Origin: Glaciozyma antarctica PI12
Taxonomy: Eukaryota > Basidiomycota > Microbotryomycetes > Kriegeriales > Camptobasidiaceae
Length of the DNA: 64,000 bases
Assembly: GCA_002917775.1 (NCBI GenBank)
Contig: KZ627150.1
Span: 1,186,307-1,250,306 of the forward strand
Direction: 5' to 3'
Program-made: the position numbers and the translations under genes
Part shown: piece after piece, positions 13,082 through 45,194 of the stretch
How positions within the stretch are numbered: position 1 is the first letter of the stretch
Layout: every line of letters begins with the position of its first letter
Notes under the pieces: model-generated
The model's input: the letters and a program-made list of their open reading frames with translations, nothing else
Told to the model about the DNA's origin: nothing
Databases searched by the model: none

Positions 13082-13428
13082 NNNNNNNNNNNNNNNNNNN
13101 NNNNNNNNNNNNNNNNNNNNNNNNNNNNNNNNNNNNNNNNNNNNNNNNNNNNNNNNNNNNNNNNNNNNNNNNNNNNNNNNNNNNNNNNNNNNNNNNNNNN
13201 NNNNNNNNNNNNNNNNNNNNNNNNNNNNNNNNNNNNNNNNNNNNNNNNNNNNNNNNNNNNNNNNNNNNNNNNNNNNNNNNNNNNNNNNNNNNNNNNNNNN
13301 NNNNNNNNNNNNNNNNNNNNNNNNNNNNNNNNNNNNNNNNNNNNNNNNNNNNNNNNNNNNNNNNNNNNNNNNNNNNNNNNNNNNNNNNNNNNNNNNNNNN
13401 NNNNNNNNNNNNNNNNNNCCAGAGCAGC
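13082..13428. other. Assembly gap (run of N)
   Basis: 347 undetermined bases. The gap cuts the F-box/LRR-like gene on its 5' side. The true length is unknown, since gaps are often given estimated sizes. Confidence 0.99.
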
Positions 13429-14660
13429 ATCTGCGCTAAACCCCTCCAGTACAGGATGAGTAGAGGAGAGGAGCGGAGGGTAGGGTCGGGATTGTAATTT
13501 CAGCTAGAGCAAAGAGAGAAGGCAAGGAGGTGAGGTGTGGATTGGATTGGGGGCATGGTGTGCTGTGCTGAAGAGCCAGGGGAGGAGCGCTGCAGAGGGG
13601 GGAGGTCAGCGAGGCAGCGCTCCGAGCACAACGGGGACGTACCGTACTGGCGTGCACAGAGCTGGTAGATCAGTATGGGAGTATCTCCCAGCCGTAAGAG
13701 CAGTGCAGCTTCAACGCAAGCAGGTGGCGCGGTGAGGTAGAACGTCAAGAAGGATGCGGGGCAACTTCGACCGCACTCTCTTCCAACAGGGCCGACGCCA
13801 CGCCCACACCGGGCACCTCAGTAACGGTATCTTCGGACCCCAACGACAGCTCGTCCATCGTCGACGAACTCGCTCTCCTAGAGGCGCAATTTACCCGCGC
13901 GCTCGACCTCTCAGCAACCATCGGCTCAGGAGGCCGCCCAGCCTCGTCGCCCTCCAGGATCGTTTGGCGGATGACAGCATTGTGGATAAGCGGCGGGTGA
14001 GGGCTTCTGTTGACAGGGGAAGGCGTGGGAGGAGAGCTGACGACTGGGGATCGGGGACGTGCTGCTCATGAGTCGCCGGCACCTGCTCTCGCTGCTGCTG
14101 CTTCACCTACGTTCATTGCGAAGTTGGAGAAGAAGGCCACCTCCGACGAATAACGGCCCGCTACGGTTGCTGCTGCTCGTCGCCCTCCTGCAGAGATCGG
14201 GACAAAGGATGCTGAGGTCCTGGTGAACTACGCCTCTGCAGGTGTACACATCTCTTGAGCGAACGGGTCGGTTTATCTTGCACAGCTGCCCAGGGTGTTG
14301 GGCCTTCAAAAGAGTGAGCGGTCAACCTCATGGAACTGCCAGGGCCCCAGCCGTGATCCTCCTCGGCTTGCTGCTCGTTCTTCCCTCTACACTCCGCTCT
14401 GACTCCCCGGTGCTACTCAGCTCAAGAGCACGCACTTGCATTCCTCCGTCACTGCACCCTCTTTGGCGTCCCAGGCAAGCATCACAAGTCCAGCCATCCA
14501 CACTCTCCTCGTCCTGCTCCACGCCGAATGGTACCAACCCACCTCGCACCCGCGCTCGAACGTCGAATACTCAATTACCCGCGCCCAGCTCAGTGCCTCT
14601 CGTTGAACCGGGCGGCGAACTCACATCTCCCTTGCCGACCGTGTCTGCAGACGCACCATT
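13429..14660. other. Gene-poor region after the gap
   Basis: Apart from the weak exon-like stretch at 13790-14000, both strands hold only short frames without motifs. Composition is less biased toward coding than in the flanking genes. Confidence 0.35.
13790..14000 (+). CDS. Weak exon-like fragment, unrecognised
   Basis: Following an acceptor-like CTTCCAACAG, the frame reads SSSIVDELALLEAQFTRALD and then LSATIGSGGRPASSP before a TGA at 13998. The amino-acid make-up is protein-like and the 5' boundary looks like a splice site, but no start codon, partner exon or family could be found. It could be a single surviving exon of a gene interrupted by the gap region, or chance. Confidence 0.2.
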
Positions 14661-14662
14661 CC

Positions 14663-14751
14663 TTCTCCTTCTCCTTCTCCTTCTCCTTCTCCTTCTCCTT
14701 CTCCTTCTCCTTCTCCTTCTCCTTCTCCTTCTCCTTCTCCTTCTCCTTCCT
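14663..14751 (+). repeat. CTTCTC hexanucleotide microsatellite
   Basis: About 14 uninterrupted copies of the six-base unit CTTCTC (equivalent to TTCTCC), ending in CTTCCTCTCC. It would encode poly(Leu), Phe-Ser or, on the other strand, Glu-Lys or Glu-Gly alternations, none of which sits in a supported gene. It lies about 100 bases beyond the truncated end of the PHD copy. Confidence 0.95.
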
Positions 14752-14847
14752 CTCCTTCTGCAGCTCTATCAACACCATAGATCATCCAGAGCATGAGCTC
14801 GGTCGGACGGTCTCCCCCTCTTGCTCCCAACTCCCCTCAGGGCCAAC

Positions 14848-15520
14848 TCTCACGATCCTTTTTCGATCCTCCACTCCTCCCCCTCCCTCGCAAAATAATC
14901 ATTCTTCCCAGAAGCGTTCTTCAGCGCTGTTTCGCTGATCTCAGCCTCTGGCTCCGACCTCCCTACCGCCGTGACGAGCTGTGCGAGCGTCCCTCGCTCG
15001 TTCGGGAGGGCGATCAGGGCGTGTGCGAGGCGGTGGACATGCGCGCGGTTGATTCGAGGATTCGAAGCTGAGGAGAGTGAGGAAAGTGAATTGCACGCGG
15101 GGCAAGTACAGGAGGAGGGAGGGAAGTCGGAGAAGCCGAGGCAGGAGAAGTGGAACCATTTGATGTCGCAGGTCTCGTCCGCGCATTCAACGCTCTGCCG
15201 AGAGGCATTGAGGAGAATCAGTGAGCGAGAGTGAGGACGTACGTGATCATCCGTGCTCGGATGACGGCAGGCGCAACAAAGTTTCTGCAAAGCGAGCTTC
15301 AGCCCGAGCTTCGCACGCAGCTACGTGACGAGGTCGAGGAAGTGGCTGGCGAAGTTAAAGCTGTTCGTGGACGTGGGGTTGGAGGAGTCGCTGGTTAGCT
15401 GGACTAAGAGGTGGCAAAGGTTTGTTGCGGGGGAGCTGGACGATGGCGTCGTGTTGAAAACGGGAGGGATAGAGAGAGGAAGCGAAAGCGCCTCCGTTCC
15501 TCAAATTGATCGCGGGCTTC
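14848..15520 (-). pseudogene. Truncated third copy of the PHD-finger/helical-module gene family
   Basis: Minus strand. Exon KLCCACRHPSTDDH is followed by a 49-base intron at the same place as in the intact paralogs, then SVECADETCDIKWFHFSCLG and CTCPACNS, which together form a C4HC3 PHD finger. Next comes RLAHALIALPNERGTLAQLV, the start of the helical module found after PHD1 in genes A and B. The module stops within WRIEKGS at about 14848, where the paralogs continue with the WR-ALRGL block. There is no N-terminal domain, first module or second PHD finger, and an upstream in-frame TAG must be spliced out for the reading to hold. It looks like a partial gene copy beside a microsatellite. Confidence 0.6.
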
Positions 15521-15639: not shown

Positions 15640-17830
15640 CTACCTCGCCACACAAGCACCGCACCTCCACCCAGGCCGCACGTCCGCGTCCTTCAGCCCC
15701 AAACACCTCATATGATACCATCCCCTCGGACATCCCTTCTCCGACCCCGCACACTGAATCAACTGCGTCCTCGGATCAGCCTCGCTGCCCGACCCTACTG
15801 GGAGCGCACTCACCTCGCCCCTCCTGGTGCTCGACGGTACCTGGCAATCGCACCACAAATGCTGTTACCGAAATCTCATAAACCTCATCAGCTCTTCCGC
15901 GCCATAAAGAGACTCACGCTCTCCACCTCCCCCTCGAAGCACTCCAGCCCCCTCAGCGCATGCTCCCTCCACCCCTCCACAATCCCCCACCTTCCCTCGC
16001 TCTCCCCGAAACAAACGTTCCGCCCCAACACCGTCCTACACTCACTCGTTCCGACCCTGCTCTTCGCAACCACCTCGTCGAGCGTCCCGCGCTCGCTCGG
16101 AAGACTGACGAACGCATGAGCGACGCGGTAGAGAATGAGGTCGAAGCCTTCGCACGAGAGACAGACCCAGGGTACGTCGAAGGAGGTCGGAGGGTCGGCG
16201 AGGCAGGAGAGGTGGTACCATCCTACATCGCATTCCGGAGCCGCGCAGCCGATTGTCTGCTCGAGGGATCAGCGGAATGCGAGGGAGAGAAGGGAAAAGA
16301 GCGTACGTCTGAGTCGGTGGCGGGACGACGACAGGTGCACCAGAGCCGATCGTTCTCCTCCGCAGAGCCGATGGTTGAATCAAGACCCATCAACGCGCTC
16401 TTCTTCCAGACGCTCTTGATCCTCCATCCGCCCTGGTGGCGTTCGAAGCACGCTTGCTTGGCGAGGACGTTCTTGATGGACGAGAGCGTGATGACCGTCT
16501 TCCAGGCTTTAATGACAGCCTGAATGGCGTCGGGTGTAGGAGGGGAGGAGGCTTCGAGGGCGTGGGCGATGTAGGCGATTGTAGTTGAGTGGGTTTGAAG
16601 AGAGGCGGGGCGAGGGGGAAAGGAAAGGGGGAGGGAGGGGCTGTTGTTGCTGCACTTGGAGGAAAGCTTGCGACGCTTCGTTGGTGCTGGGCTGGCATAG
16701 GAGGTGGCGGAGGTGGACGCCTACGAAAGGTTAGCGGTGCTGGTGGAGGAGGGGGAAGAACGCACGGGAGAAGACTGTAATCCTGAGCTCTTGCTCGTCG
16801 TCGAACGAGTCCCGTAGCCCGAGATCGCTGGCGACGCCCGCGAAGCGACCGACTGCGTTCGCTCAGGCCTTGCAGGAACCTCGACCCAGAATCCAGCGGT
16901 CTGCGTTCCCATCACTTCGCCCTCGTTGTCGAGCTCCATCTTCTCCCCCACGTCGTGCATCGCACGCTTGAGGTTCGCAGCTTGGTCGTCCCAACGCCCG
17001 GCCGCCGACTCGGTTTCGTACAGGTCGTCCTCGTCCGACTCGTCCGACTCGTCCTCCTGGCCCTTGAAGCGATCCGCAGTCTCTTCCTCCTGCTCTTCCT
17101 CGATATCGCTCTCGGGAACAGGAGACATTTGGCGTCGTCCAGGCTGCCAGATGAAGGTTAGCTTTCGGTCCGCGAACGAGGACGAAGACGCCGCACCTGC
17201 TCGTTCACAGACATCCCGCGCTCATACCTCCGCACAGGCGTAGACTCGGGAACAGCTTCGGGCGCAGGCTTGGGCTTCTCCTCGTCGGGCTCCTGAGGCG
17301 GCGTTGGCATCTGCTCTGGCTCTGGCTCGGGAGCTGACAGTCGTAAGTTCTTGCGCCGCAGAGGCGGGTAACGCTCCCTGCATTTTCGACCGTCAGTGCC
17401 TCTCCCAAACGCCAACGCCAACAGAGACCGCGACTCACTCCGCGAGGAACGCGGCCTTGGACAACTTGAGGAGCCACTCGCGCCGCTCAATCGTCTCCCT
17501 CGTCATTCCCTCCGTCCCATCCCTCTTACTATCTTTCTCCTCATTCACAAACGCCCTCGCGACCAAAGCCAGCCCGAACCGACCCCTCTCAATCGCGTCC
17601 GCCTCGATAGACGCGTCGCCGTAGATTCCCTCGAGGACTTCGCGGAGGAGCGGCCAGGTGAGGTTTGAGCTGGAGAGGTTCAGCAAGAGGCCCAGAAGGC
17701 GGTCGGCGGCGTAGGAGGAGGGCGAGGCGAGGGGGATAGAGGAGGAGGTAGGGAGGCGGTCGGCCAGCTCGCAGAGATCTACGAGCAGGGGGTCGCCGCG
17801 CGAAGAGTGGCTGAAGCTCACGCTGGACAT
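15640..17830 (-). CDS. Two-PHD-finger protein with repeated helical module (paralog A)
   Basis: ATG at 17828-17830. The N-terminal domain contains WPLLREVLEGIYGDASIEAD and ERREWLLKLSKAAFLAE. Next is a Pro/Glu- and Ser-rich acidic linker, then module 1 (IAHALEASSPP to ACFERHQGGWRIKSVWKKSA, LMGLD). PHD1 is LWCTCRRPATDSD, then CAAPECDVGWYHLSCLADPP, then WVCLSC. Module 2 is YRVAHAFVSLPSERGTLDEV to VCFGESEGRWGIVEGWREHA, LRGLEC. PHD2 is LWCDCQVPSSTRRGE, then CAGSEKGCPRGWYHMRCLGL, then WRCGACVAR and the stop. All zinc ligands (C4HC3) are visible in both fingers. PHD fingers read histone H3 tails, so a chromatin role is likely. Introns split both fingers between the second and third ligand. Paralog B lies at 25.9-28.3 kb. 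Confidence 0.75.
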
Positions 17831-18280
17831 GGCGAGGAAGCCAAACGGCGGGTGTTAAGTCCTGCGAGTAGAGCGTAGGAGGGAGAGGATTGGGGCTCGT
17901 CGCGCGTCGCGTCTCGAGAGGGCCGCCAGCTCGAGCTGAGGTTTCGCTCCTCTCCTTCTCCCCTTCAGTCTCTCGTTCAAAGGTGCCAACCAGACGCCGC
18001 GGATTAGTACAGAATCTGTTCCAAACGCCACGTCAAGATGTTAAGACTGAGACGTAGACTGGATCAACTGGAGAAGAAGATCCAACTCGTCTCGAGGTTC
18101 GAAACTACCCAAGTCCAGCATACACTGCGATAACTACCAGAGCGATATCTCCCCTCGCAATGGGCTCGGGATCCTCATTCCAACACAAGAGGACACGTAC
18201 TCGCAGCTCGCCACGACCTCCGCTCCCCGCACCTCCCTAGCCTCTCTCCTTCCGACCACATCTTCACCTTCCTCTCCGCG
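17831..18280. promoter_or_regulatory. Divergent intergenic region between PHD gene A and BEM46-type gene
   Basis: About 450 bases separate two divergently transcribed genes, so it should hold both promoters. No clear TATA box was seen. A CT-rich leader precedes the ATG at 18281. Confidence 0.4.
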
Positions 18281-19712
18281 ATGGGGTTCCTCCCAGACGC
18301 TAGCACCCTCCTCAAATACGCCGCCTCAACCGTTCTCCTCTCCCTCACCGCCGCCGGAGGACTCCTTTACCACTTCCAGACCTCCATCATCTACCCCTCC
18401 TCCCTCCCCGACGGTCAGCACCGTCGCTTCCCACTGAAGGCCCAGCTGATGAAACAAACGCAGGCTCTCGCATCAACGTCTCTACACCAGCAGAACATGG
18501 ATTGCCGTACGAGGACGTCGCCCTACTCACTCCTGACGCCGTCAAGATCAAGGCCTACCTCCTCCTCCAGCAGTCCGATCCTGCCAGTCGACCGACGGTA
18601 GTGCTGCTTCACGCGAACGCGGGGAACGTGGTGCGTCTTTCGTTCTTGCCCTAGAAGGGGAATTGGGAAGGGAGGTCGCGACGGGAGCTGATGCAGCGTT
18701 CGTGGGACAGGGTCACCGGCTGCCGATTGCGAGCGTGTTTGTGAGGAAGATGGGATGTAATGTGTTGGCTTTGTCGTATAGAGGGTGCGTTTTGTGGCTT
18801 GGGTGCGGTAGCGAGGGACGCAGCTGATCTCGCGGTGCGCAGGTACGGTCTGAGCGAAGGGACGTACGTTCTCCTCCCTCTCTGCGTTCCCCGTTGGCAC
18901 CCGCTGAACTCTTTCGCAGTGCATCAGAGAAGGGACTTCGGCTCGACGCGCAGGTGGGCCTTCTCCCCCACCCTTCTCAGCCGCACCTCCTGACCTCGCT
19001 CCCCCAGACTGCGCTCGACTACATTCTCTCGCACCCTCAACTCGAGAAGACCCAGATTTTCCTCTACGGCCAATCCATCGGTGGAGCAGTCGCGATCGAC
19101 CTAGCCTCTCGCAACGCCACTCGAGTTCGTCCTCCCCCCTCGCTCCTCATCCCCAGCTCACCCCTCGCACAGGTCCACGGCCTCATCATCGAAAACACCT
19201 TCCTCTCCCTCCCCAAACTCGTCCCTCACGTCCTCCCCTTCCTTACGCCCTTCGTCTTCCTCCTCAACCAGTACTGGGTCTCGGAAGCCCTCGTCCCTTC
19301 CCTCACTGGGATCCCGGTGCTCTTCCTCAGCGGCGCGAGGGACGAGCTCGTACCGCCGGCGCATATGAAGCTACTATTCGAGGCGTGCGGGAGTGGGAGG
19401 AAGGAGTGGAAGGAGTTTGAGGACGGGACGCACAGTGCGTTCTTTTCCTTCCGTTTTCTCAGCCGCGAGCTGACGGGCGCAGACGATACGTGCATGCAAC
19501 CGCACTACTTTGCTACGATCGCTACGTTCATCGAGGCGCATACCCCGGTCATGGAGGTGCCTGGAGAGAAGGAGAAGGGACCGGCGTCGGTCGCGAGTTC
19601 TACGACGAGCTTTGAGATGGTCGAGGAGCTGGAGGAGGAGGAGGGGTGGGGGAGCGGAGCGGAGTTGGGGAGCGTGGTGGATCTTGAGGAGGTGTTGAAG
19701 GAGAAGCTGTAG
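18281..19712 (+). CDS. bem46: BEM46/ABHD13-type alpha/beta hydrolase, membrane-anchored
   Basis: The N-terminal hydrophobic segment (LKYAASTVLLSLTAAGGLLY) acts as a membrane anchor, followed by FQTSIIYPSSLPDG, typical of the BEM46/WAV2 family. Later exons give SYRGYGLSEGT, then QIFLYGQSIGGAVAIDLAS with the nucleophile Ser of GxSxG. Next are HGLIIENTFLSLPKLVPHV and PVLFLSGARDELVPPAH, whose Asp is the likely acid. The catalytic His is at the split exon DGTHNDT. The C-terminal extension is acidic (VDLEEVLKEKL, TAG at 19710). About seven short introns break the frame. BEM46 proteins act at the cell periphery or ER in polarity and cell shape; the enzymatic substrate is not established. Confidence 0.85.
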
Positions 19713-20293
19713 GTGGGGAGAGGGTGTAAGGGATATGTCTGCGATGGTGGAGGAGCGGGCTCGAGGGAGGTGTTCTCTGCTTCCCTGGAGTGAGTGTTTT
19801 CGACAATGCCTAAGGTCTTGCGCTGTCGACTGCAAGGCTCTCGTGCTTGCTCGTTCAGCGGAGGTGGACGTCGGTTGATCCGGAGGAACGCCAGAGTACT
19901 CGCCCTGACCGTCGCATTCCCCCTTCCTTTGACGATGGCTTCGTTCTCCGTGTTCCGTCTTGCCTCGCTGACTTGGTACGCTTACGGCGCACTCCAAACG
20001 AGCGATAACTTGCAATAAAATACACAAATATTCGAGAAGAACGCAAGTCGAGAGAAAATCAACAAGGCAGCTCTCCTCTCCCTCCGCCCAGTCACCCTCT
20101 CGTCCCTCACACCTTCAGCCTACGCCGTCCTTCTCCCCTCTTGCCGTACAGCAATCCTCTCGCCCCTCGCGTTGGTGGACCTCTTGAACGCCTCAGTCGA
20201 CCGACCACGCAATCAGCAACGCACCCCCAAACAATCCTCATTCACCCCGTCCTCCAGCCACTCGACAACCAGCCGCGCCTGCGCCGTACTCAG
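19713..20293. other. Intergenic, no supported gene
   Basis: About 580 bases between two plus-strand genes. AAAATACACAAATA near 20016 is AT-rich and could serve as a polyadenylation or promoter element. Nothing else stands out. Confidence 0.35.
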
Positions 20294-22260
20294 ATGGCAG
20301 ACATCCTAAGCGACCTTACCATCTTGGCCGAGTTCCAGGGCACCAGGGTCCCAGGTGCGTGGTCGCGCAATCCCAGCCCACGCAAAAACCGCACTAACAA
20401 GGCCCTCTCGACAACGCAGAAGCCTCCCCCTCCGGTCCCTGCCTCTCCCTCTTTGGGCCGATCCTCACCCACCCCTCCAGCACGACCTTCCCCTGGACCC
20501 CTCTCCGCCACGCCTTGAACAACTACTTTGGAGGCGCACCGCTTGCCCTCGACCCGAACAAGATCAACTCGGGATGGTGCGGACTCAGCCTCATCCTCAC
20601 CGCTTTCCGCCGCCTCGAGGTCGTCGACAGTGAGCTCGAGACGGCCGAGTTGTTGAGTTGGCTACAGGCGCTCAAGGTAGCGGCGGTTAGGAGGAGGTGC
20701 GTCCTTTCTGCCCTTGTTTTTCGCTTTGGCGGGGGTGCTGGAGCTGATCGTGCGTTGGCTTTACAGCCTGGCGTTCGAGATCACCTCGTGCAACGACCTT
20801 CAACAAATCCTATCGACTCTCGCAGAGCCAGTCCCTGCCGCCGAGCTCGCCAACCACGCCAGAGCCAGGTCCGTCCCGTCCTCCTTCAACGGCCGCAAAC
20901 TCCCGCTGACCCCTCACGCATGACTGCAGGACCTCGAGCGCGCCTTACGCCAAACCTCTCGCTTCAACTTCGTTCGAACGTGGATCAGACGCTACTCGCT
21001 CCCCGCCTCCTTCGACCGTCGCCACCTCCGCCTCTCCCGAGTCTTCCAACCCGCACGTCGAGTCCGGCTTGGACCGCAAGCGCTCTCCTGGATCGGCGGG
21101 ACACGCGAGTCCGGCGGCGAAGAAAAGGCGCTCCAACTCGCTCAGCCATATCGCTATCGTTGGCCTTGGAGGCCGACCGCGCGACTCGACCGTCTCGACC
21201 TCTGCCGTGCGTCGCTCCGTTACTTTCCTCCTCTGCGACGCAAGCTGACGACCCTACACGCAGCTCTCCTCCTTTGCCGACTTCTCGGATCATCACGACA
21301 TGGATCTCCCTGACTACTCGTCGTCGGAAGAAGAAGGCAACACAACGACCTTCCGCCGCCCCGCCGCCGTTGCCGCCGCCGCCTACTCCCCCTCCTCGAA
21401 GCCCCACCCTCCCGCCACCGTGACCCAAAAAGACGCTAAGATCAACCTCCTCGCTCAACGCCTTTCGGAAGTGACGGGCATCAGCCTCGACAAGTGCATC
21501 GAGACGATCGGTCGTTTCCCCGACGACGACCTCTCCTCCATCAACCCTCACTCTCCTATCCCCGCTCAGTTCCTCCCGCCGCTGCCGCAGAAAGCTAAGC
21601 CGAAGCCGAGGAGCAGTAATGCCGGGAGCAGCAAGTATGCGAGCAGCAAGCATGGGAGCGAGGACGCGTCGATCGCGGGGACGAAGCCGACGAGGACGCA
21701 GAGGCCGCATGATCCTAATAGGCCTAGCTTTAGCTACTCGGCGCTTATTGGACAGGCGATCCTCAGCACGGCAGAGAAGAGGATGAGGTTGGCGGAGATT
21801 TACGATTTCGTTACCGACAACTGTGCGTCCTTTCTTCGCTCGCTCGCTCTTCGTAGAGGCTCGACGATGACGATGATAAGCAGACGCCTACTACAAGAAG
21901 AACGAATGCGGATGGCAGAAACCTCCGATCCGGCACAACCTCTCCCTTCAACCCGTCTTCCGCAAAGTCCCCGACGTTGCGATGCCCGGCAAGAAGGGGT
22001 GTTTCTGGACCATCATCCCTGGCGAAGAATGGCGTTTCGCGAACGGCGGGTGGCTCAAGATGGAAGCGGGGAGGGGCAAGGTCGTCAAGGAGAAGAAGGA
22101 CAAGGTCGTCAGGAAGAAGAGTGCTGCGGCCGGGAGGAAGAAGAAGGAGAAGGACAGTGAGGAGAGCGAGGAGGATAGGAAGTTGGACAAGGAGCAGGAG
22201 GAGTTGGAGGGAGGGAGTACGGTCGATGCGCTTTATTCGGAGGAGGAGGAGGAACGTTGA
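20294..22260 (+). CDS. Forkhead-domain transcription factor
   Basis: The C-terminal half contains RPSFSYSALIGQAILSTAEK, RMRLAEIYDFVTDN, an intron, then AYYKKNECGWQ and IRHNLSLQPVFRKVP. It continues through PGKKGCFWTIIPGEEW to a lysine-rich basic tail and an acidic end (EEEEER, TGA 22258). FSYSALI, the recognition helix with IRHNLSL and the WTI wing are classic forkhead features; helix 3 binds the DNA major groove. The first exons (from ATG 20294, MADILSDLTILAEFQGTRVP) encode a globular region of about 180 residues, with PWTPLRHALNNYFGG, that I do not recognise. A Ser/Pro-rich linker with a basic cluster (SPAAKKRRSNS) follows and could act as a nuclear signal. The sequence between GWQ and IRHN reads slightly off the consensus (normally GWQNSIRHN), so an intron boundary or a small base change lies there. 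Confidence 0.82.
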
Positions 22261-22339
22261 GCGAACGTTGAGCGCAGGGTGATACGGTGAAATATGTTGC
22301 TTTGCTGGTGATTTTACATCCTCCTTCGCCGTCGTATTC

Positions 22340-23333
22340 TCAGGCGCGTTTCGAGTCCAAGCTATCCAGACTCTCCTTGGCTGGTCGGTTCTCCCCCTCG
22401 AGCGAAACCGCGTCGATCGCCTCAATCCCAAGCTCGTACCTGCGTTCTCGTTAGCTCCATCTCTCCTCGTGCAAGAGGAAGAACGTACCGTCCCTCCGCA
22501 GGTCCCAGAACGCTGATCCCGACCGTTCGAACTTTGGTCCGCATCATCTCGATCTGAAGCTCGCTAAGGTCTCCGCTGTTGGTGAGCGTAAAGTCGGAGA
22601 AGGGGATGAGGACGTCTGTCCATTCGTGCGGTGCTTCGTCGGAGGAAGGGGAGGGGAGCCAAACGCGATGTTGGAAGAGGTCGGAGCGAACTGCGAGAGA
22701 GGGTCAGCGAGGGTGTCGACTCGAGCGAGGAGACGACGCACCTGGTCCATCGGTCTGGATATTGACGAAATACCGCATCCCATCCCCCGAACTCCTCACT
22801 TTCAGCCTCAGGAAATCATAAAGCGACGTATCCCACGTCCTCGCCCCAAACATCGTCGTCCTCGACTGCTCCGATCGCGCATCAGCTCTCCCTCCCCTCG
22901 CGCGCCGAGGAAGAACACACCTTGCTCCTCATCCCAGCGTACCCACCACGCTCTATCACCCCGTCCTTCCTCCTCCCCTCCCTCAGCTGGCTACTCAAGC
23001 TCCCCCAAAGCCGCCCCTTGTTCTCCGGCCCTAGATCGAGGTGAACCGTGCTCATCCCCCCTGCACCTCATTAGCTCTCCGTCCTTTCTCCCACAAGAAA
23101 AGGCGCGCACCGAGATCCCCATCGCATCCTAGCACGAACTGCGAGACGTCCTCCTTTGAGCGGAGAGGGAGGAGGGGGAGGACGGTCTTGTGCACGGGAC
23201 TGGGTTGGGCTCGGAGGACTGTGCGAGGGGTTAGCTTGGTGAAGGGCAGGGATGGGAGGGACGAGCCTTCGGAGGAGCGGTCGCGGAGGTGCTCCATCGA
23301 GCGACTGAGGTAGGAACGCCAGGCGGTTGACAT
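22340..23333 (-). CDS. CIA30: CIA30/NDUFAF1-type complex I assembly factor
   Basis: On the minus strand, starts at MSTAWRSYLSRSMEHLRDRS and later gives FVLGCDGDLG, then GMSTVHLDLGPENKGRLWGS and GYAGMRSK. After an intron comes WDTSLYDFLRLKVRSSGDGM, then RYFVNIQTDGP and EWTDVLIPFSDFTLTNSG. The D-G-D-xG-G-S/T-T-V pattern followed by GRLWG and GYAGMRS is the CIA30 domain (galactose-binding-like fold). It ends with a TGA at 22340 after a Ser/Glu-rich tail. CIA30 helps assemble the membrane arm of mitochondrial NADH dehydrogenase. No strong N-terminal presequence was seen beyond a basic, Ser/Arg-rich start. Four short introns are visible. Confidence 0.82.
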
Positions 23334-23578
23334 GGCGGCGTGCGATCAGGCGGGTTGATTGAGGTGCTTCTGGGCTGGGGGCTGGGGGCCGTGGGAGGGG
23401 CTGAAATGATACGGCGTAGGCTGGGCTTGGGCGGGGTGAGTGGGAGAGGAAAGGAGAGCTACTCGGTCGTCGTCGCCTCTTGTCCTCCTCCCGCGTTCGT
23501 GTTCTGCTTCTGTTCTCTGCTTTGTCCTTGCTAGTTTCTGTACTGTATTCCGTGCCGTCGTAGTGACTTCGTACCCAG

Positions 23579-23648
23579 TGAGTTGGCACCGCTCAACCGG
23601 CGCCATCCTGAGCGCGCATGGTCCGCGTTCGCTAACGCCTTCGTGCAG
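23579..23648 (+). promoter_or_regulatory. Leader intron ending directly at the start codon
   Basis: GTGAGT at 23579, a GCTAAC branch sequence around 23632 and GTGCAG at 23643-23648 make a complete intron whose acceptor abuts the ATG at 23649. If used, the first exon is non-coding. Confidence 0.5.
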
Positions 23649-25697
23649 ATGGAACGCGCCAATGTCGAAGCCCTCACCGCCGACCAGCTCTCCATCGAAA
23701 CGCTCTCCTCCAACCCCCGCATCCCGACCTCCAACGCCTTCGAATCCCCTGCCTTCGCCCCCTTCGCCCAACTCCTCCTCGCCCGCGAGGACCTCAACTG
23801 GGAGACGGTCTACGCGCTCCTCCAGGAGCAGTTTGCTGAGCGGGTAGTAGCGAAGGAGAGTATTGTTGGAGGGCGGACGAGAGTCAGGACGGTGCTGAGC
23901 GCCATGCGGACGGCGACGGGGTCCGAAGGACGCGAGTACGAAGTGGCGTTTTGGTGTTGGAAGCTTAAGAAGGCGGTGGATAAGCAGATGTGAGTCTTCT
24001 GGGAGTAGGTGGGGAAGTGGTAGCTGAAGGGTGTGCCGCAGTGCTGATTACGAGGGCGAGGTCGAGCCGATTGTGGAGCAGGCGAGGGACGCGACGAGTC
24101 TTTCAGCGACTCCCGCGCTGGATGTTGGGGGAAACGGGGCGTACGTTCCCTTTCTTCTTTTGTGATCTGGGTACCGAACTGACTCTGCATCTCCAGTGCT
24201 GCACCTCCCTCCCCTGTGCCGACGGTGACCTCCTCGGACCTCGACGCGCTCACCCAGCCCAGCCCAGCCTCGCGTCCGTCGGGTGCTCGAAGACCGTTCT
24301 CGACTCCCCGTAAGCCCAATCCTCCTCTTTTGAACACTAAGCTCATCCGTTCGTCGTAGTATGGCCACACCTAAAGCCTCGACCTCCCGCTTCTCTCCTG
24401 TACCCTCAGCGCGACCTTCCTCCGCGTCGCCTACGAAGCCGAAAATCTTCAACGTCGCTTCAATCGAGTGCGTCCGCTCTTATCTATCAGTCTCGGAGTG
24501 TTCCTGGCCCTCTGGCAGCCTCAGCGGCGACACCTCCGACGAAGAAGAAGCCAAGCCCTCGCTCGTCAAAGCCACTCCTCTCCCGTTCGTGTTCCTCCTT
24601 TTGATCGCACAGTCACCACATTTCTGACTCGGGCTCCTCCAGCGTCTCGCTCTCTTCCCGCAAGAAAACGACCCTGGATCCCTCGCCCCGCCAGTTGAAA
24701 GCTCAGCTCGCGCCGCCTCCTCCGCCCGCATCCTCGCCGTATGCGACTCGCAGCGGCGTACAGCTTTTGCTTAACGCCAGCGTGTCACTGAAGCGTTCTC
24801 TCGCGGACGGACGAGAGGCAAGCGGGAGCGCGAAGAAGGTTCGATTAGACGAGACGCTGGCTGCGAAGGTGCGTTCACCTCTCTGCTGCGAAAGACGGGA
24901 GCTCAAAGTCGTTGCAGGATAAGAGTAAAGGTCGCGTGAAGAGATCTACGTCGGCAGAGCCGGAAGTCGTCGAGGTGCAGGACGCCAAACCCAACGAACG
25001 CATGGACGATGACGCTACGCTCGACGACCATCCAACTGTCGACATCATTCGCGATACGCTCGTCTCCCTCCCCTCCTCCATCGACCTCACCCCTCATCCC
25101 AATTCCCTCGACCCCTCCCTCTCCCTCTCCTTCACCCGTTCCCAAATCGGCGGCAACCCCCAGATGCTGATTCAAGATGGCTGGGCCGGCGAATCCTACT
25201 TCGAATGGAAGCGCCATCTCACCCTCAACAGTGGATACAACATCGATGCTCGCAATCCCGGCGACCCCATCGTCCTCTTCTCCATCCCCGAGGTCCTCGA
25301 GAAGCTTCGCAAGGAGCTCTTTCGCGGTATCGCAGCGTTTGCCTGGCGCGGGACGAACGACTGGCTGTATAAGGGTATGCAGGAGCTGGCGATGCCGTTG
25401 GGGGAGCACGAGTACCTGCAGACCGAGCTGGGAGAGCTGGTCGGCATGGTGGGAAGGCGGAGGGAGACGCTGCTGAGGGTGCTCGAGGCGCACTGTCAGG
25501 GGAAGAATCGGTGGGGCAGCAAGGTTCTTGCAGCTTGGGGTTTTAAGAGCAGGACGTACGCTGGGGCGGTGGAGGAGCTTGAAACGAACCCTCAGGCGAG
25601 GATGGTGTTCATCGTCGCGAGGTGCTCGGGGTTCGACGAGGAGAGCTTGGGGGAGTGGGTGAGGAGAAATGGGAAGGGAAATGGGAAGGAGGAGTAG
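23649..25697 (+). CDS. Unrecognised acidic/Ser-rich protein with conserved-looking C-terminal domain
   Basis: The start (MERANVEALTADQLSIETLS) leads to a helical region, AFAPFAQLLLAREDLNWETV to VAFWCWKLKKAVDKQM. A Ser/Pro/Thr-rich linker follows, broken by several introns, with SGDTSDEEEAKPS-like acidic patches and SGSAKKVRLDE. The last large exon (about 24919-25697) encodes a compact domain: GGNPQMLIQDGWAGESYFEW, LRKELFRGIAAFAWRGTNDW, TELGELVGMVGRRRETLLRV and MVFIVARCSGFDEESLGEWV. It ends with TAG at 25695. I do not recognise the family. The layout (short helical N-domain, long disordered middle, folded C-domain) suggests a nuclear scaffold or regulator; that is inference only. It converges on PHD gene B, about 170 bases away. 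Confidence 0.6.
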
Positions 25698-25870
25698 AGC
25701 AGGAGGTACCTAGTTGAAACTCGCGGGCCGTCTTGGACCCTTCGATGTCCGAACGCAGAATTTCGACCTCGCTCGGCCGTTCTGTCTCCTCTCGTCCTCC
25801 TCCGCTTCGTACGCGCCTTAACTGCTTCCGAAACTCGTTCAGCTCCAGACGCACACCAACAAGACTGATT

Positions 25871-28250
25871 TCAAGCAAGAGACGACCTCCTGGACCCCCA
25901 GTTCCTATCACCCCTGCATTCGTCGCACCTCCATACATCCTCGACGTCCTCCATCTCCAAGCACTCAAGATGGAACCACTCAATCCCACAAGCCTTTCCC
26001 GCGCACTTGACCATCTAAATCGCACCCGTCAGCCATCATCGCCCGCCCGCGAACAACAAGCCACTCACCTCGCCCCTCTCCGTGCTCGTCGGCGCTCCGC
26101 AGACGCACCACAACCTCTGCTCCGCACTCAGAAACTCCCTCAATCCGACAGCGAAACCACTCACGCTGTCCTCCCCTCCCTCAACACACGCCAATCCCCT
26201 CAGCGCATGATCCCTCCACCCCTCCGCAATCTCCCACACATACTCCTCGCTAACGAAGCACACGTGCCCCACCAGCGTCCCCAACAGCTCAACAGAGATC
26301 GAGTGATGCGTCAGGCTCCTTCCTCTGATTTCGTCGAACCTTCCTCGCGCGTTGGGGAGGGCGATGAGGGCGTGGGCGATTCGGTAGACGGTTTCGTCGC
26401 TGGAGGGGGAGGGGGGGGGGGGGGGGGGGAAGAGCGGAAGGAAGAAGTGCAGTTGGGACAGGTCCAGGTCGTGTCGCAGGAGGGAGGAGAGGAGAGGCAG
26501 GAGAGGTGGAACCACTTGATCTCGCAGTCATCCTCAGCGCAGCGAACGCACTGCGGGTGCAAAGTGAGAGACTTCCGGAGGGTTGAGAGAGCTGAACTTA
26601 CGTCCGAGTTGGTCGCTGGACGACGGCAGCTGCAGAACAGTTCCTGAAGACGACGCAAGAACTCGGTCAGCGAGAAGCTTCGCATGACCGCGAAAACAAC
26701 GCACGGCGTGCTCGGTGCCCTTCTTGCAAGGAAGCCCCATCAACGCGCTCTTCCTCCAAACTTCCTGGACCCTCCACCCTCCTCCGACGTTCTCGAAGCA
26801 CTCCTGCGCTTGAAGAGTGTTGAGGAGCGTCGTCGGCTTGATCGGAAGATGCCACGCCTTGAGCTGAGTGAGGATCTTGGCGCGAGTGGCGTCGGGAAGA
26901 GCGATGAGAACGTGCGCGATGATGGCGATGTTGGGAAAGTCGGAGTTCAGGTCGGATGGACAGGAAAGGGAGGAGACTTGCGCGCCCGTGTGGCGGGTGG
27001 GTTGGGCCTTCTTTGCGCGTTTGGTCGAAGATCTGGTGGGAGAAAGGGTGGAGAGAGTCGGAGACGGGGTCGAGGAGGATCTCTGAGTGATTTAATCAGA
27101 ATCAGAGGAATGTAACCCGGGAGGGACGGTGGGGACGCACGAGGGAGAGCGAGAACGAGAGCTGCGACGCGCTCGAGTTCGCAGATTGCGGGTCCGGTTG
27201 CAGCTGGAACTCGGAGAAGGCTTCGAAACCCGCCGACGTAGGGTAAAGCTGCCTCCAAGCCGCGAGGATCTCGCCCACTTTGTCCTCGCCATCGTCCATC
27301 GGCGCCGTCTCCTCGGTGACTACTCGCTCGCCATTCCCCGCACCCATGGCAGCCTCATCCGCATCCATCGACTGCTGAGTCTCATCGCGACTCTCCTCTG
27401 GAACACCCATCTCGAGCGCCTCCTCGGGTTGGGTCGTCCTAGCTCGCTCGACCGCCTTCTCCTCGTCGCTCTCCGGGATCGTCGACTTCTCGCGCTGGAT
27501 TCCATCCGTTCCATCGGCCTCCTGAACAAAATACTATCAGCAACAGTACTCGGAACGAAGATGAAAGCCACCAACCACCTCGTCGACCGCTATCTCCATT
27601 CCTTGCTCGTGCGACGGATCAGACGCAGCTGAGATCTCTGGCTTGTTCTCATCGGCTGAAAGAGCACGTTCGGACTTCTGGACTTCATCGGGAGCCAAGC
27701 TACGATCGACGAGTGGGTATCGCTTCCTGCACCAGAGTCAGCGGACCCCGCCGGAGCGAGAGGGAGAAGCTCACGAAGCCTCCAGCGCCGCTTTCGAGAG
27801 CTTCAAGATCCACGTGTCGCGCTCAATCAATTCCGAGTCTTCCTCCAGATCTTCGGCCATCCCAGCGCGCTGCTCGAGCCTCCCAAAGGCGCTGCACACC
27901 ATGTTGAGCCCGTCAAACCCGCTCTGAATCGCTCCGGACTCGATGCTCGGCCTGTCGCCAAAGCACGCCTCGAGCACCTCGCGCAGGAGAGGAAAGGTGA
28001 TTGGAGGAGCGTCGGCGGGGAGTAGAAGAGGGGCGAGGAGGGTGTAAGTCTTGGAGTCGCGGGTTGCGGCGGGGACGGAGGAGCTCCGGAATTTGGAGAG
28101 CGTGGTGAGGCGGTGGAGGAGGTAGGAAGGCGCGGAGGGGTTGAGGGAAGGAATACGGCTTTCTATTTTGTAGTTTGAGGAGCCAAGCGAGGCGATTCGA
28201 GAGCAAGAGCTGGGTGGTACGAGGGAGAAAGCTGCAAGAGGAGCTCCGGG
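25871..28250 (-). CDS. Two-PHD-finger protein with repeated helical module (paralog B)
   Basis: Same plan as paralog A. The N-domain has FPLLREVLEACFGDRPSIES and ERDTWILKLSKAALEAS, with an intron at the same codon as in A. An acidic linker follows. Module 1 runs from IIAHVLIALPDATRAKILTQ to ECFENVGGGWRVQEVWRKSA, LMGLPC. PHD1 is LFCSCRRPATNSD, then CAEDDCEIKWFHLSCLSSPP, then WTCPNC. Module 2 runs from YRIAHALIALPNARGRFDEI to VCFVSEEYVWEIAEGWRDHA, LRGLAC. PHD2 is LWCVCGAPTSTERGE, then CAGKACGIEWFHLECLEMED, then WRCDEC; the stop is at 25871. No ATG could be placed in frame; the frame is open up to about 28256, so the first exon may be missed. A run of 19 G (26411-26429) lies between PHD1 and module 2, and the frame changes across it. 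Confidence 0.72.
26411..26429 (-). repeat. Homopolymer of 19 G (C on coding strand) inside PHD gene B
   Basis: The tract encodes a poly-proline stretch. PHD1 is open in one frame before it and module 2 in another frame after it, so the tract length sets whether the halves join. An assembly length error is the simplest cause. Confidence 0.85.
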
Positions 28251-28462
28251 CTGAGAAGATCAATCTTCTTCTTCTTCTCCCCAGCTCTCCTTCCCTCCTG
28301 CTGTCCTACAACACCTCCAGCTACTGCTGTGCGCTCCCGACCTAGTTCCCTCGACCGCGTCCAAGCACGGCCCCTGCTCTCCGCTTTGGGCGACGAATCG
28401 TTCACAATCGAGTCCGGCCTTGCTTTTCTCCTCTCCCTCTCCTCTGCTTTCTCTTTCCTGCC

Positions 28463-29372
28463 ATGCCTCCTCGCAAATCTCTTCAACCTATCTGCGCCAG
28501 CGCAGTCTCCACTGAGCGCGCAGGCCAACGACCCCGCAACGCCGCGAAGCCCTTGCGATTCCTCGAGGACGATGCTGTTGTTCTCACGGCGGTGTTTTCA
28601 GACGATTCTCTAGCGTCCGTGCGCGTGAGTTCAGCTGAATTTGACTTCGGTGCGCTGATATCTCGAGCAGAGCCGTCTTGGAGCGGCTAAGGTCAAGCTG
28701 CCTCGGTCGACGAGGATAGCCGATCTGGCGGGCTTTCTGGTGAGCCGAGTCCTTTCCCTTTCAAGAGGTCTTACTGAAGAGTTACGGATCCAGGCAACTA
28801 CTGAAGAAGAAGACAAAGCGTTGCTCGTCGCCACCTCGGAGCGTGATGTGGTTGCGAAGGAGGGGGACGCTCTCGCTCTTCAGCTTGCAAAGGCGACCCA
28901 GGACCTCGATTCGGCTCAAGTAAGTACAACCGTACACCGTGCTGGTACTTCAACTGAAATGTTTGCTTCAAGGCTTTGGCGCAAGATTATCTCAACCAGA
29001 TCGCGTTCCTCCAGCTCTTGCTCGACAGCGCCCTCAGCATCAGTTCGGTAAGCACGACTTCCTCGGTTTTAGCCTCGAACAGAAGATTGACCGACGTCCA
29101 CAGACACTGCAAAACTCTCTCGCCATGTCGCTCAGTCAGAACGAATCCCTCGCCAACTGCAATCTCGCACTCGCCCAGCAGCTCGCTACGAAGGACGCTT
29201 CGTTACAGCCGATTCTAGTGAGGCTGTTCCCAATTTGGCTGCTCATAAAACGCAGCTAAATCCTGAGGAGCGTCCTGCAGCACCGTCTGTACGCGTCGGG
29301 GAAGGAGAACGCAGCTCCCATCAACACGGATTTGGACCTCGTTCGGCAGCTCTGAAGCCACGGGGTCGTTAG
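28463..29372 (+). CDS. Small coiled-coil protein, unrecognised
   Basis: ATG 28463 gives MPPRKSLQPICASAVS and then KPLRFLEDDAVVLTAVFSDD. The next exons are SRLGAAKVKLPRSTRIADLA, TSERDVVAKEGDALALQLAK, ALAQDYLNQIAFLQLLLDSA and SLANCNLALAQQLATKDASL. The spliced protein is about 200 residues, and much of it has heptad-like spacing of Leu/Ala, so a coiled coil is likely. Introns begin GTGAGT, GTGAGC, GTAAGT and GTAAGC. The last exon is ambiguous: the in-phase reading stops at 29370, while a different frame reads ASGKENAAPINTDLDLVRQL and stops at 29352. It is divergent from PHD gene B, about 210 bases apart, so a shared promoter is possible. I do not recognise the family. Confidence 0.55.
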
Positions 29373-29792: not shown

Positions 29793-32063
29793 ATGCATCT
29801 TCTCTCGACCGTCGGCTGCGCCGCGTTCTTCCTCCCTTTGTTCCTCCGTTCCTGCGCCGCTTCTCCCCTAATGCATGATCTCCTCCTCATTTTCAATCCA
29901 ATCAATCTAACGAGCTTCCCACAGCGTGCAGTACTGGCCTTCCTACTACTCCTCCACCCAATCCCCCTCGCAGATACCCTGGGGCTCGACCGACATCGCC
30001 TACCACTTTGTGACAGAAACGACGGCGCGAGGAATCAAGAGTCCTGATAGCGGGTCTATTGCCAACATCAAGTCGTTCGTCGCTGAGGCGCATCAGCGTG
30101 TGTGCCGGTCTTGTGAAGGAGGGAGGGAGCTGATGCGGAGTCGCAGATGGTGCGAAGGCGGTCTTCTCGGTCGGGGGATGGACGGGGAGCGTGTATTTCT
30201 CGACTTTAGTTGGGTCTGAGTCGAGCCGAGCGGAGTTCTCTAAGCAGCTCGCGGCGTTTGCGAGGGAGTATGATTTTGATGGGGTCGACCTCGGTGAGGA
30301 ATCTCGCTAATCGAATCGCCGAACGTGCTGACTCTGAAACAGACTGGGAGTTCCCTTACGGCGTGGGGATGTAATTTACTCGTATCTCCTGCTCACACGA
30401 AAACAGGACTTACCTCGCTTCGCAGTGGCGGCAACCAAGTCTCACCCGACGACACTGCGAACCTCCTCTCATTCCTCAAGGTCCTCAAGAGCGATCTCGG
30501 CGAATCTAGCATTATCACCGCCGCTGTGGCTATGACTGGCTTTATCGGTCCCGACGGGAAGATCCTGAGCGACGTCGCCGAGTACGCAAAGTACATCGAC
30601 TACCTGAACTTGATGAGCTACGACGTCTCGTTCGTCTATTTCGTCCTCCGTATTTGCGCTGGCTGACTTTGAATCTTAAGCGGCGACTGGTCGAGCACTA
30701 CTGGCCCGAACGCTCCCCTCGACAGCTGCTCCAGCGACACGAGCGCCTCCACCGCCATCAAATTGTGGACTTCAGCCGGATTCCCCGCTTCCCAGATCCT
30801 CCTGTGCGTCAATCTCTCTCCTTCCCCCTCCTATCCCGCCTCTCTCCCATCCCCCCCGCCTCCCATCCTCCCTCCTCGCCATCCCCGCTCCTCGCTGACC
30901 GAGCTTTGCAGCGGGATCCCAGCCTACGCCCGCAGTTTCACGACCGTCTCCTCCACTCTCTCCACTCTCTCCCTCTCCGACGGTTCTCAGACGAAACTTT
31001 ACCAAGCGAAGACGTCCGTCGTTCCGCAGGGAGACAGCAAGGAAAGCTGTGGGACAAGCTGCTCGGGTCAGTGGCAGTATCGGAACATGATCAGTGGCGG
31101 AGTGAGCTTTCTTCGTTTGAGGGTGAGAGGGGTTGGCTGATAGGATTCGCAGATCTTGTCGAAAGATGGGAGGACGGGGATGGGAGGCTTTCAGCGGTAT
31201 TGGGACAACTGTACTTCGACGCCGTTCCTGTTCAATCCCGAGTCTAGGGTTTTTATAAGCTTCGATGATGCGGAGTCGGCGGCGCTGAAAGTGGTGAGTC
31301 GGTTTCGCAGCGAGGTCGAGGGTTCGCGCTGATGAGGTGTGCAGACGTTCGCGGTGGAGCAAGGTCTTGCTGGGGTGTGAGATCTTTCCGCTTTGAGTTT
31401 AGACTGTGAAGATGCTGACTCCCTCGCAGAATGCTGTTCGACAGCACTGGCTTCACGAAAGACGTCTACGCAGCGATCAACAACGCTCTCGGGACCTCAT
31501 CTCCGACTTCCCCTGTCTTCAAGGCTCCCTCCTCTCCCACCAACACGTCTGGATCTTATTTTTCAACATCATCAAGCAATTTGAGCACCACGACGCAATC
31601 TTCCACCTTCGTACCTTCGTCCCCCGACGCCGATGGCGTTGCGAAGCTCGCTACCGAGACCGACGGGGTTGCGAAGCTCGCTATCCCTTCGTCCTCCTTC
31701 TCCCCAATCGACTTCTTCTCCTCCGCAGCCGACTCTCCGTACTCCTCAACCCCCGACGCCTTCTCCTCCACCCCAACTTCCTCTTCCTCTCCCACCTCTC
31801 CCACCTCCTCCACCGCATCCTTCACCTCTCCCACTTCATCCTCTCCAATCTTTTCCTCTAACCCACTCAGCACCACCGACGCCTCTCCAGCCACCTCCTC
31901 TTCTCCCGAAACGATTCGCTGCGATAGCGGGACAACTTGGTCGCTGTGCGTCGATGGCGAGTGCCAGTTCATGGGAGATGTAACGGCGGGAACCAAGTGT
32001 GTTGATGGAGCCTTGGTGTGGACGGGTATGAGGAGGGTTAGGAGGAATGGGAGGACGTGGTAG
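29793..32063 (+). CDS. GH18 chitinase-like glycoside hydrolase, secreted, with Ser/Thr linker and Cys-rich C-terminus
   Basis: The signal-peptide-like start MHLLSTVGCAAFFLPLFL is followed, after an intron, by VQYWPSYYSSTQSPSQIPWG and STDIAYHFV, the beginning of a GH18 barrel. The catalytic motif YDFDGVDLDWEFPYG is split by an intron (about 30293-30342); it keeps the DxxDxDxE residues, with the last Glu as proton donor. Further on are ITAAVAMTGFIGPDGKIL, YAKYIDYLNLMSYDVS and MLFDSTGFTKDVYAAINNAL. The C-terminus is a long Ser/Thr/Pro-rich linker, probably O-glycosylated, then CDSGTTWSLCVDGECQFMGD and TKCVDGALVWTG, a short four-Cys domain that may bind carbohydrate. Stop TAG 32061. The tandem neighbour at 32559 lacks this tail. 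Likely role: chitin remodelling in the wall. Confidence 0.82.
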
Positions 32064-42903: not shown

Positions 42904-44799
42904 ATGCTCTCCCGCCTCGCCTGCTTCTCTCCACTCCGCGTCCTCGCCGTCCAAACCCCGCCTAGACTCCCTCTTCCCCGCTTGAGCCGGTGCCTCCTCT
43001 CCACCTCTGTCCCTCTCCGAACCATGTCCTCGCCCTTCCCTCCGCCTCTACGACAGCTCGCACCCGACGAATCGGTCCAAGTCCCTTCCGCGACCAGCTC
43101 ATCCACCTACACTTGCAAGCGGTCCGTCCCCCACCTCTTATCCTCCCCACAGGCCGCTGATGCCCCCACACAGAGTCGACGACCACTACACGTGTCACTG
43201 TCCCGCCTGGAAGATTCAAAAAGGTCGTGGAGTGGACGCTAGGACGTGCAAGCACCTACGCCAGCTGCTCGGGGATCCGTGAGCCCCCTTTCCGCGTCAC
43301 GTCGAAGTGGGGGAGGAGCTGAGGAACGCAGGTACGAGGATGCGCGACTGGCGGCAAAGGGATTTGCGTTGCCGTTGCCTACTGCCAAGGCTGCGAAGAA
43401 GAGGGCGGCACCGGTGGCTAAGGCGCCGGCGAAGGCGAAGAAGGATGCGGAGGAGGTGGACGACCCGTCGCCGCCAGTCGCCAAGGAGAAGAGGGTGGTG
43501 GAGGTGCTCCTGGCGAAGAAGTTTGAGATTGGGGGGAAGCTTAGTCCCGAGGGGTGGTGGATGAGCGAGAAGCGTGCGTTCCTATTCCTCGTGCGGTGGT
43601 GGTAGAGCTGATGCGATGACGCAGTGGATGGGATTCGAGCTTACTGGGACGGGGAGGGAGTGCTTTGGAGTAGGCTGGGGAACCAGTTCTACGCTCCCAA
43701 GTGGTTCACCGACAGTGCGTCCTCGTCCTCCCACTCCTCCCTCCTCGCTGAACCGCGCTGACCAGACGATCGCAGAGCTCCCGCAAGGCCACACTCTCGA
43801 CGGCGAGCTCTTCCACTCTCGCAACAACTTTAGCGCCGCCAGTTCCATCGTCCGCTCGCACGCCAGCGAGAAATGGGGCGAGCTGCGGTACCAAGTACCG
43901 TCCCCCCCCCCCCCCCCCTCGCCGCGACCTCGCTGACTCCCCAAAATTAGGTCTTCGACATCCCCTCTCTCGCTCACCTCCCCTTCGAAGCCCGTCTCGC
44001 GCACCTCAACACCCTCTTCCCCGGCTCAGCCGTCCTCGCCGCCCCCGGCTCCTCTCGCCCCGTCGCTCCCTCCTCCGTCCTTCCCTCCTCCCTCTCTGTC
44101 GCACCCGACGCTCCTGCGAACGCGAATGGCAAGGCGAAGAAAGTTCGCTCAGACTATACCTGGGTCATAGGGTCTATCGTCGAGCTGGTCGAGCAGAAGA
44201 AGTGCGAGGGGATGGCGCATTTGATCGAGTGCTTGAAGGAGGTTGAGGCAGGGGGTGGGGAGGGGTACGTTCGTTCCTTGTTGTACTCTGTCCTCTCTCT
44301 GACGATGTTTTCGCAGGCTGATGCTGCGCGAACCGAAGAGTCTTTACGTTAACAAGAGGTCCGGAACGCTGCTCAAGGTCAAGACGTTCTTCGATGCCGA
44401 GGCCAAGGTTGTTGGGTACGAGCCTGGGAAGGCGAGCTTCGTTTCTCAGCGAGAGTTGGGTCGTAGGCTGATGCGCGATACAGGGCAAGTACGTCGGGAT
44501 GACGGGGTCGCTCGTCTGCGAGATGGAGTCTGGCAAGCGGTTCTCATGCGGGAGCGGGCTGAATGACGAGCAGAGGTCTGATCCGCCAAAGGTACGTTCT
44601 CCTCCTTCCTCGTCGCTCGCTCGCTGACGAACCGACGCAGATCGGAGCTATCATCTCGTACCGCTTCCAGGAGATCACGAAGGATCAAGTCCCGCGCTTC
44701 CCGACGTTGGTGGGCGAGAGGGTCGATATGCTCGTGGCGAAGGACGCGGACGTCGGGAGCAAGGCGGTGAAGAAGAAGGATGGGGAGGACGAAGAGTGA
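42904..44799 (+). CDS. ATP-dependent DNA ligase with SWIM-type zinc finger and mitochondrial-type presequence
   Basis: The first ATG (42904) gives MLSRLACFSPLRVLAVQTPP and an Arg/Leu/Ser-rich, acid-free stretch to the next ATG at 43024 (MSSPFPPPLRQLAPDESVQV), a good mitochondrial presequence. Next is YTCHCPAWKIQKGRGVDART followed by CKHLRQLL, a SWIM zinc finger (CxC...CxH). The adenylation domain has SEKLDGIRAYWDGEGVLWSR, with motif I KxDGxR; the Lys takes AMP. Later come GNQFYAPKWFT, TLDGELFHSRNNFSA, LREPKSLYVNKRSG and LLKVKTFFDAEAKVVGY (motif V Lys). The C-terminal OB domain includes IGAIISYRFQEITKDQVPRF and PTLVGERVD. It ends EDEE, TGA 44797. The adenylation and OB layout is that of minimal ligases of Chlorella virus and kinetoplastid-mitochondrion type. 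It seals nicks using ATP. Introns have GTGCGT or GTGAGC donors. Confidence 0.83.
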
Positions 44800-45194
44800 G
44801 GGGGGGGGGGGGTTGTGCAACGTGCTGGCGTGCTGCTATGTATGTTTTCTTAGCTTTCGCTCTCATCTCTACTCTGGCGTGGCGTGCTCGGGCTGTAGCC
44901 AACCAGGTCGTTGTCGCTCACAACCTGCTCGCTCGCCGAGGTTCTGTTTCCTCCGCAATTTTTTTCTCGCTGCTTCAGGGCGAGGGTCCGACTTCCACCA
45001 GCTTCCCCTCCGCGAAATTCGTCGTCCCGTCCCAATCCTCTGCGTCCTCCTCGTCCTCCTCGTCGTCTCTCGAGGCGAACACGAACCGGACCGCGACCGG
45101 GCCAAGACCGGTTACCGTTGTTACCCAGAGCGAGGACGTACTTGCGCTCTTCCAAGTGGATCCAGCTTGATCTCCTCAAGGTCTCCACGCAACA

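Follow-up and report, generated by a model that had tools for sequence, protein, structure and literature searches.

Two paralogous genes, A and B, in a 64,000-nucleotide stretch of the Glaciozyma antarctica PI12 genome (GCA_002917775.1, contig KZ627150.1, positions 1,186,307-1,250,306 of the forward strand; hereafter the window) encode proteins with a common plan: an N-domain, an acidic linker (long in A), and then a module, a PHD finger, a second module and a second PHD finger. The explanation that we favour, with a probability of roughly 0.55, is that the two genes of this Microbotryomycete fungus encode chromatin-binding proteins specific to its lineage, in which a unit of forkhead-type winged helix and ING-like PHD finger has been duplicated, and which the N-domain links to a neighbouring forkhead gene, gene E. 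The architecture of the proteins, the homology of their modules, the fold predicted for module 1, the preferred similarity to forkhead domains and the sharing of the N-domain and its donor position were obtained by computation. A first-pass annotation of the DNA had already recognised the common plan, and this holds for both genes. It had also taken both minus-strand paralogues to be intact, which is true of A with its open reading frame of 624 residues but not of B, where the frame changes and an in-frame ATG is missing (Table 1).

The module occurs in full four times in A and B and once more in a third, decayed copy of the gene (copy C), as had been noted earlier, and the likeness among the five is beyond chance. 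When the ten pairwise alignments were compared with 1000 shuffles, nine scored above all of the shuffles and the tenth, between module 1 of A and module 2 of C, was reached by one in 1000. The two modules 1 of A and B align with a score of 152 and the two modules 2 with 172, against 55-101 for the four pairings of a module 1 with a module 2 in these genes. Since each module is closest to its counterpart in the other gene, the internal duplication appears older than the duplication of the gene. Overall, A and B are 40% identical and their introns lie at matching places. A phase-0 intron interrupts both fingers of A and of B, as calculated from the coordinates, and also PHD1 of C, as judged by eye, consistent with the original proposals that the fingers are split at one place and that module and finger were duplicated together as an exon unit. 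A second intron directly precedes the finger in PHD2 of A and PHD1 of B, with none before PHD1 of A; there is possibly another before PHD2 of B (48 nt and in frame, hence also readable) and before PHD1 of C.

Fold and ancestry of the modules

Module 1 of gene A, the only module modelled, is predicted by AlphaFold2 to form a winged helix, in which three helices lead into a wing of two strands. The folded part spans about 70 residues, rather than the 95 or so first assigned to the module. When the model was submitted to Foldseek, the first six rows from the PDB were all forkhead domains of FOXN1 or FOXN3. In hhalign the profile of the five modules aligned to a profile of 63 forkhead domains, made up of gene E and its matches in the protein search, with 83% probability (E 8.6e-6, score 32.2), collinearly over 59 columns, while the maximum scores after shuffling the columns 200 times per side were 18.7 for the forkhead side and 19.2 for the module side. 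With gene E and its 15 best matches taken out of the forkhead set, leaving 52 domains, the value was 84.6%. Among subsets of the modules, the four of A and B gave 75.4%, the two module-1 sequences 6.0% and the two module-2 sequences 14.7%. Other winged helices were used as controls. A MarR set (30 sequences, one with an internal stop) gave 0.3, 0.7, 1.0 and 0.5% with the four module sets, and a linker-histone set (6 sequences) gave 0.2, 0.6, 1.4 and 0.1%, two of the four lying above all 40 shuffles. For reference, the forkhead profile itself reaches 34.5% with linker histone and 2.0% with MarR. A Fur set was dropped because its sequences were at least 90% identical.

Several results weigh against a forkhead ancestry. 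With six close forkheads alone the hhalign value falls to 2.9%, and single modules reach 1.7-9.0% against the forkhead profile. Pfam lists forkhead (PF00250) for none of the five modules up to E 10, an hmmsearch of the PDB sequences with the module profile returned no matches, and the FOX recognition-helix motif IRHNLS, invariant in six forkhead relatives, is absent from the modules. Indeed, no Pfam model matches the module, so that the earlier statement that it corresponds to no named domain stands. The first-pass suggestion of a winged helix recalling forkhead proteins is therefore supported by AlphaFold2, Foldseek and the profile-profile comparison with its controls, but not by Pfam or HMMER. 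Alternatively, the module could be a winged helix of other or unassignable origin, whether SAMD1- or KAT6-like, linker-histone-like or convergent, the forkhead likeness reflecting a common fold. This seems unlikely given that hhalign favours forkhead widely over MarR and linker histone, that the first six Foldseek rows hold only forkheads and that the adjacent gene sharing the N-domain encodes a forkhead protein. On balance, it is reasonably probable that the modules are of forkhead origin. A and B resemble forkhead proteins (PF00250; FOXN1/FOXN3) in predicted fold and collinear profile alignment, and gene E, the neighbour that has their N-domain, encodes a genuine forkhead protein; they differ in that the module, lacking the Pfam match and the FOX motif, is duplicated and joined to PHD fingers.

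The two modules differ in charge. Module 1 is basic, with an isoelectric point of 9.8 in A and 9.6 in B, compared with 9.2 for the forkhead domain of gene E, while module 2 is acidic (5.7 in both genes). Such a difference suggests a split of labour in which DNA contact would be restricted to module 1. The acidic module 2 of both genes, the loss of the FOX motif and the long acidic linker ahead of module 1 would also be consistent with modules that no longer bind DNA; A and B would then be scaffolds for protein-protein contacts or subunits of a co-repressor, with histone tails read by their fingers. We consider this doubtful, as module 1 in both genes is about as basic as the gene E forkhead domain.

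PHD fingers and comparable chromatin proteins

The five fingers of A, B and C all have the eight zinc ligands of a Cys4-His-Cys3 arrangement and the cage tryptophan (Trp-31). Pfam scanning of protein A gave PHD only, in two stretches, the best being residues 574-621; the protein as a whole scored 25.2 bits, just over the cut-off (24). For gene B, where the second half of PHD2 alone was scanned, the score was 15.5 bits, under the cut-off. A search of the whole genome with PF00628 gave 12 exon matches, none of them in this window because introns split these fingers. Among PDB sequences, PHD1 of A comes closest to fingers of the ING and Yng2 type, with 12 distinct sequences matched at E 2e-4 to 6e-4.

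In ING3 the histone H3 trimethylated at lysine 4 (H3K4me3) is bound in a cage of Tyr-8, Ser-15, Met-19 and Trp-31, and Arg-2 contacts Asp-23, Glu-30 and Trp-47, as described in PMC5000080. These positions were mapped by eye onto the fingers, taken in the order PHD1 of A, B and C and then PHD2 of A and B. The residue at Tyr-8 is Trp, Phe, Cys, Trp and Trp, aromatic in four of the five, that at Met-19 is Thr, Cys, Ser, Leu and Met, and, in a departure from the ING/Yng2 fingers, Asp-23 is replaced by Ala in all five. PHD2 of B retains the aromatic residue, the Met, the Glu and both Trp residues; PHD2 of A has Gly in place of the Glu in addition to the Leu for Met, and PHD1 has Thr (A) or Cys (B) for Met. 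From this residue pattern PHD2 would be the better candidate for reading methylated H3K4, probably with an altered affinity. No ING domain was found in protein A by Pfam.

Winged helices and PHD fingers are found together in other chromatin proteins. In KAT6A/KAT6B (MOZ/MORF), a double PHD finger is accompanied by two winged helices in tandem, which cooperate in DNA binding (PMC9908889), but there the winged helices and fingers form two blocks, whereas in A and B they alternate, and Pfam found no MYST domain, the catalytic domain of the KAT6 acetyltransferases, in protein A. The Polycomb-like proteins PHF1, MTF2 and PHF19 combine a Tudor domain and a pair of PHD fingers with a winged helix that binds CpG (PMC10137883). 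By domain plan these can be likened to A and B, in that a single block for chromatin targeting unites PHD fingers with a winged helix for DNA binding, although in A and B the domains form an alternating repeat and no Tudor domain was found in protein A by Pfam. In the literature, surveyed by titles and the openings of abstracts, no description was found of fungal proteins in which winged helices and PHD fingers alternate.

An N-domain shared with other genes

What is new here is that the N-domain of A and B is common to the forkhead gene E, gene D and a Rua1-type regulator (gene F), with a phase-2 donor at the same codon; its occurrence in further genes was missed by the first-pass annotation. 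By hhalign the N-domains of A, B and F match those of E and its relatives with 98.6% (E 1.4e-15). At all six N-domain loci, the sixth being fragment G, a GTG[AC]G donor-like site lies exactly 11 codons and 2 nt past a conserved Trp, and this pentamer begins at 0.37% of window positions. The common donor position supports D and G as members of the family and suggests that exon boundaries delimit the N-domain as a unit. A stretch of 13 kb holds four of the six loci, and gene E is 2.5 kb from gene A. The N-domain is predicted to be helical, with a mean predicted local distance difference test score of 71.7. The prediction gave no fold match, and the N-domain, which occurs at six loci of this genome and also in related genera as part of forkhead proteins, had no Pfam match.

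The spliced reading frame of gene E is open in four of the eight splice combinations tried, and its forkhead domain matches PF00250 with E 3.2e-26. The relatives that match it best are forkhead proteins from Microbotryomycetes, where relatives sharing its plan occur; the one from Pseudohyphozyma bogoriensis is 55% identical, with 97% of the query aligned. P. bogoriensis also has a 920-residue protein with an N-domain of the gene E type and no precomputed Pfam domain, possibly the product of a second N-domain gene on the contig of the forkhead relative.

The N-domain of gene D gave 61.5% in hhalign with the A/B/F profile against 0.8% with the E-type profile, and no alignment with that of A by BLASTP; D is kept in the family because of the first of these values and its donor position. 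In its C-terminal part, of which two exons were scanned, there was no Pfam match over the cut-off. The N-domain of gene F was found with E 0.004 from the A query, and as a query itself found E, B and A with E 3.4e-7, 1.1e-6 and 0.003. In gene F, which has the same N-domain and phase-2 donor as A and B, the C-terminal Rua1 region replaces the modules and PHD fingers: the spliced frame is open into the start of the Rua1_C domain in six splice models, and a piece joined by eye across the next intron matches PF14616 with E 1e-21. Fragment G is kept in the family because of its donor position; its locus was absent from the tblastn matches of D across the retrieved loci at E <= 1, and the sequence downstream showed no clear C-terminal body.

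Distribution, integrity and setting of the genes

A search of the 19.98 Mb genome (18 contigs) in six frames with three single-protein queries found the module at loci A, B and C only, though distant copies may be missed. A further row (C10, E 0.05) corresponds to residues 66-100 of a query of 101 residues that extended into a finger. Protein searches covered 5.8 billion proteins, with scoring limited to candidates sharing exact words. With residues 360-624 of A, none of 1215 candidates reached E <= 0.001. A profile of A and B gave no usable relative among 7998 scored candidates, the one row up to E 10, at E 2.3, being an ING-type chromatin-modification protein by name and Pfam label and unusable as a relative. 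With gene E as a control query, 7997 candidates were scored and 67 of them lay at E <= 0.001, headed by Microbotryomycete forkhead proteins, so the database does cover the lineage. A and B are thus either lineage-specific, or very fast-evolving, or their relatives are unannotated in the database.

In gene B, PHD1 and module 2 are in different frames on either side of a 19-base homopolymer, and the frame change is either real slippage or an assembly error. For a 5' exon there is a possible candidate that begins at 28464, its donor lying at 28405. The codon-position G+C of the gene B exons is gene-like, but as this is also so for the decayed copy C it says little about gene B. Copy C is a pseudogene, in which PHD1 and most of module 2 are kept and are followed by a stop (within module 2), a (GGAGAA)n tract and remnants of the second finger in several frames. 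The frame change in B, the missing ATG for its N-domain and the stop codon in C raise the possibility that the cluster is decaying, with B and C pseudogenes and A alone, or none, functional. This is rather improbable: the 624-codon frame of A is uninterrupted, A and B retain all zinc ligands at 40% overall identity, and a 19-base homopolymer is a usual place for sequencing error.

The G+C content of the window is 49-62% in 2-kb steps, mostly about 60%. Only three homopolymers of at least 12 bases occur in it: that of gene B and those at 43902-43918 (17) and 44800-44812 (13). A run of 337 N at 13082-13418, downstream of copy C, represents masking or an assembly gap. An alpha/beta hydrolase (Hydrolase_4, E 7e-11) lies at 18828-19712 (+) between genes A and E, and exons at 30298-31140 (+) weakly match glycosyl hydrolase family 18 (chitinase-like), each below the Pfam cut-off.

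Table 1. Positions of the genes and their parts; window coordinates unless a contig is given.
Feature	Position	Strand	Description
Gene A	15640..17830	-	7 exons, 624 aa; uninterrupted spliced open reading frame from ATG to TAG, six GT-AG introns
A N-domain	17439..17830	-	Exon 1; phase-2 intron at end; predicted helical, moderate confidence
A module 1	16382..16594	-	Predicted winged helix, basic (AlphaFold2, Foldseek, charge)
A PHD1	16152..16348	-	Split by intron 16257-16306; eight zinc ligands; ING-like by sequence
A module 2	15918..16142	-	Acidic; homologous to module 1
A PHD2	15640..15861	-	Split by intron 15763-15813; preceded by intron 15862-15917
Gene B	25871..28163	-	Paralogue of A with the same plan; assembled version not intact
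B N-domain exon	27775..28163	-	No in-frame ATG upstream
B module 1	26705..26941	-	46% identity to A module 1
B PHD1	26449..26643	-	Split by intron 26551-26601
B homopolymer	26411..26429	-	19 bases, C on coding strand; reading frame changes across tract
B module 2	26165..26398	-	47% identity to A module 2
B PHD2	25871..26116	-	Split by intron 26015-26068
Copy C	about 14480..15320	-	Decayed PHD1 and module 2, with remnants of PHD2
Gene E	20294..22261	+	N-domain, stretch like a nuclear localisation signal, forkhead domain (~21708-22075); one open reading frame, six exons
Gene D	23649..25697	+	N-domain-like first exon; phase-2 donor at matching position
Gene F	contig C16, 210844-211182		N-domain joined to Rua1_C transcription-regulator domain
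Fragment G	contig C11, 5176-5466		About 5 kb from contig end; N-domain match to D (E 1.6e-8), one internal stop

In the explanation favoured here, an ancestor of A and B probably arose beside or from the neighbouring gene with an N-domain and a forkhead domain (gene E), since that N-domain recurs in A and B and is closed there by a phase-2 intron at the same codon. A unit of diverged forkhead-type winged helix and ING-like PHD finger would then have been duplicated within the gene, followed by duplication of the gene itself and decay of the third copy. Beyond this route of origin, we infer binding to both DNA and histones: the basic module 1 would contact DNA on the nucleosome and finger 2, which has kept most of the ING-like methyl-lysine cage, would read methylated H3K4, while the acidic module 2 may be mainly structural or protein-binding. 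The N-domain would link A and B to partners, perhaps other transcription factors with an N-domain. A more speculative extension, which we hold only tentatively, is that the N-domain is a mobile new helical exon, seeded from a forkhead gene, that has been joined in one lineage to unrelated chromatin- or DNA-binding bodies (forkhead, Rua1, D and A/B). In A and B the forkhead domain, duplicated and alternating with PHD fingers, might then form a nucleosome reader of four parts, which its N-domain would pair with the forkhead factor encoded next to it.

Within a narrow lineage, a DNA-binding fold has apparently become a repeated companion of a histone reader. Because a possible parent gene lies only 2.5 kb away and an intron marks the unit exchanged, the route from transcription factor to chromatin reader becomes testable.

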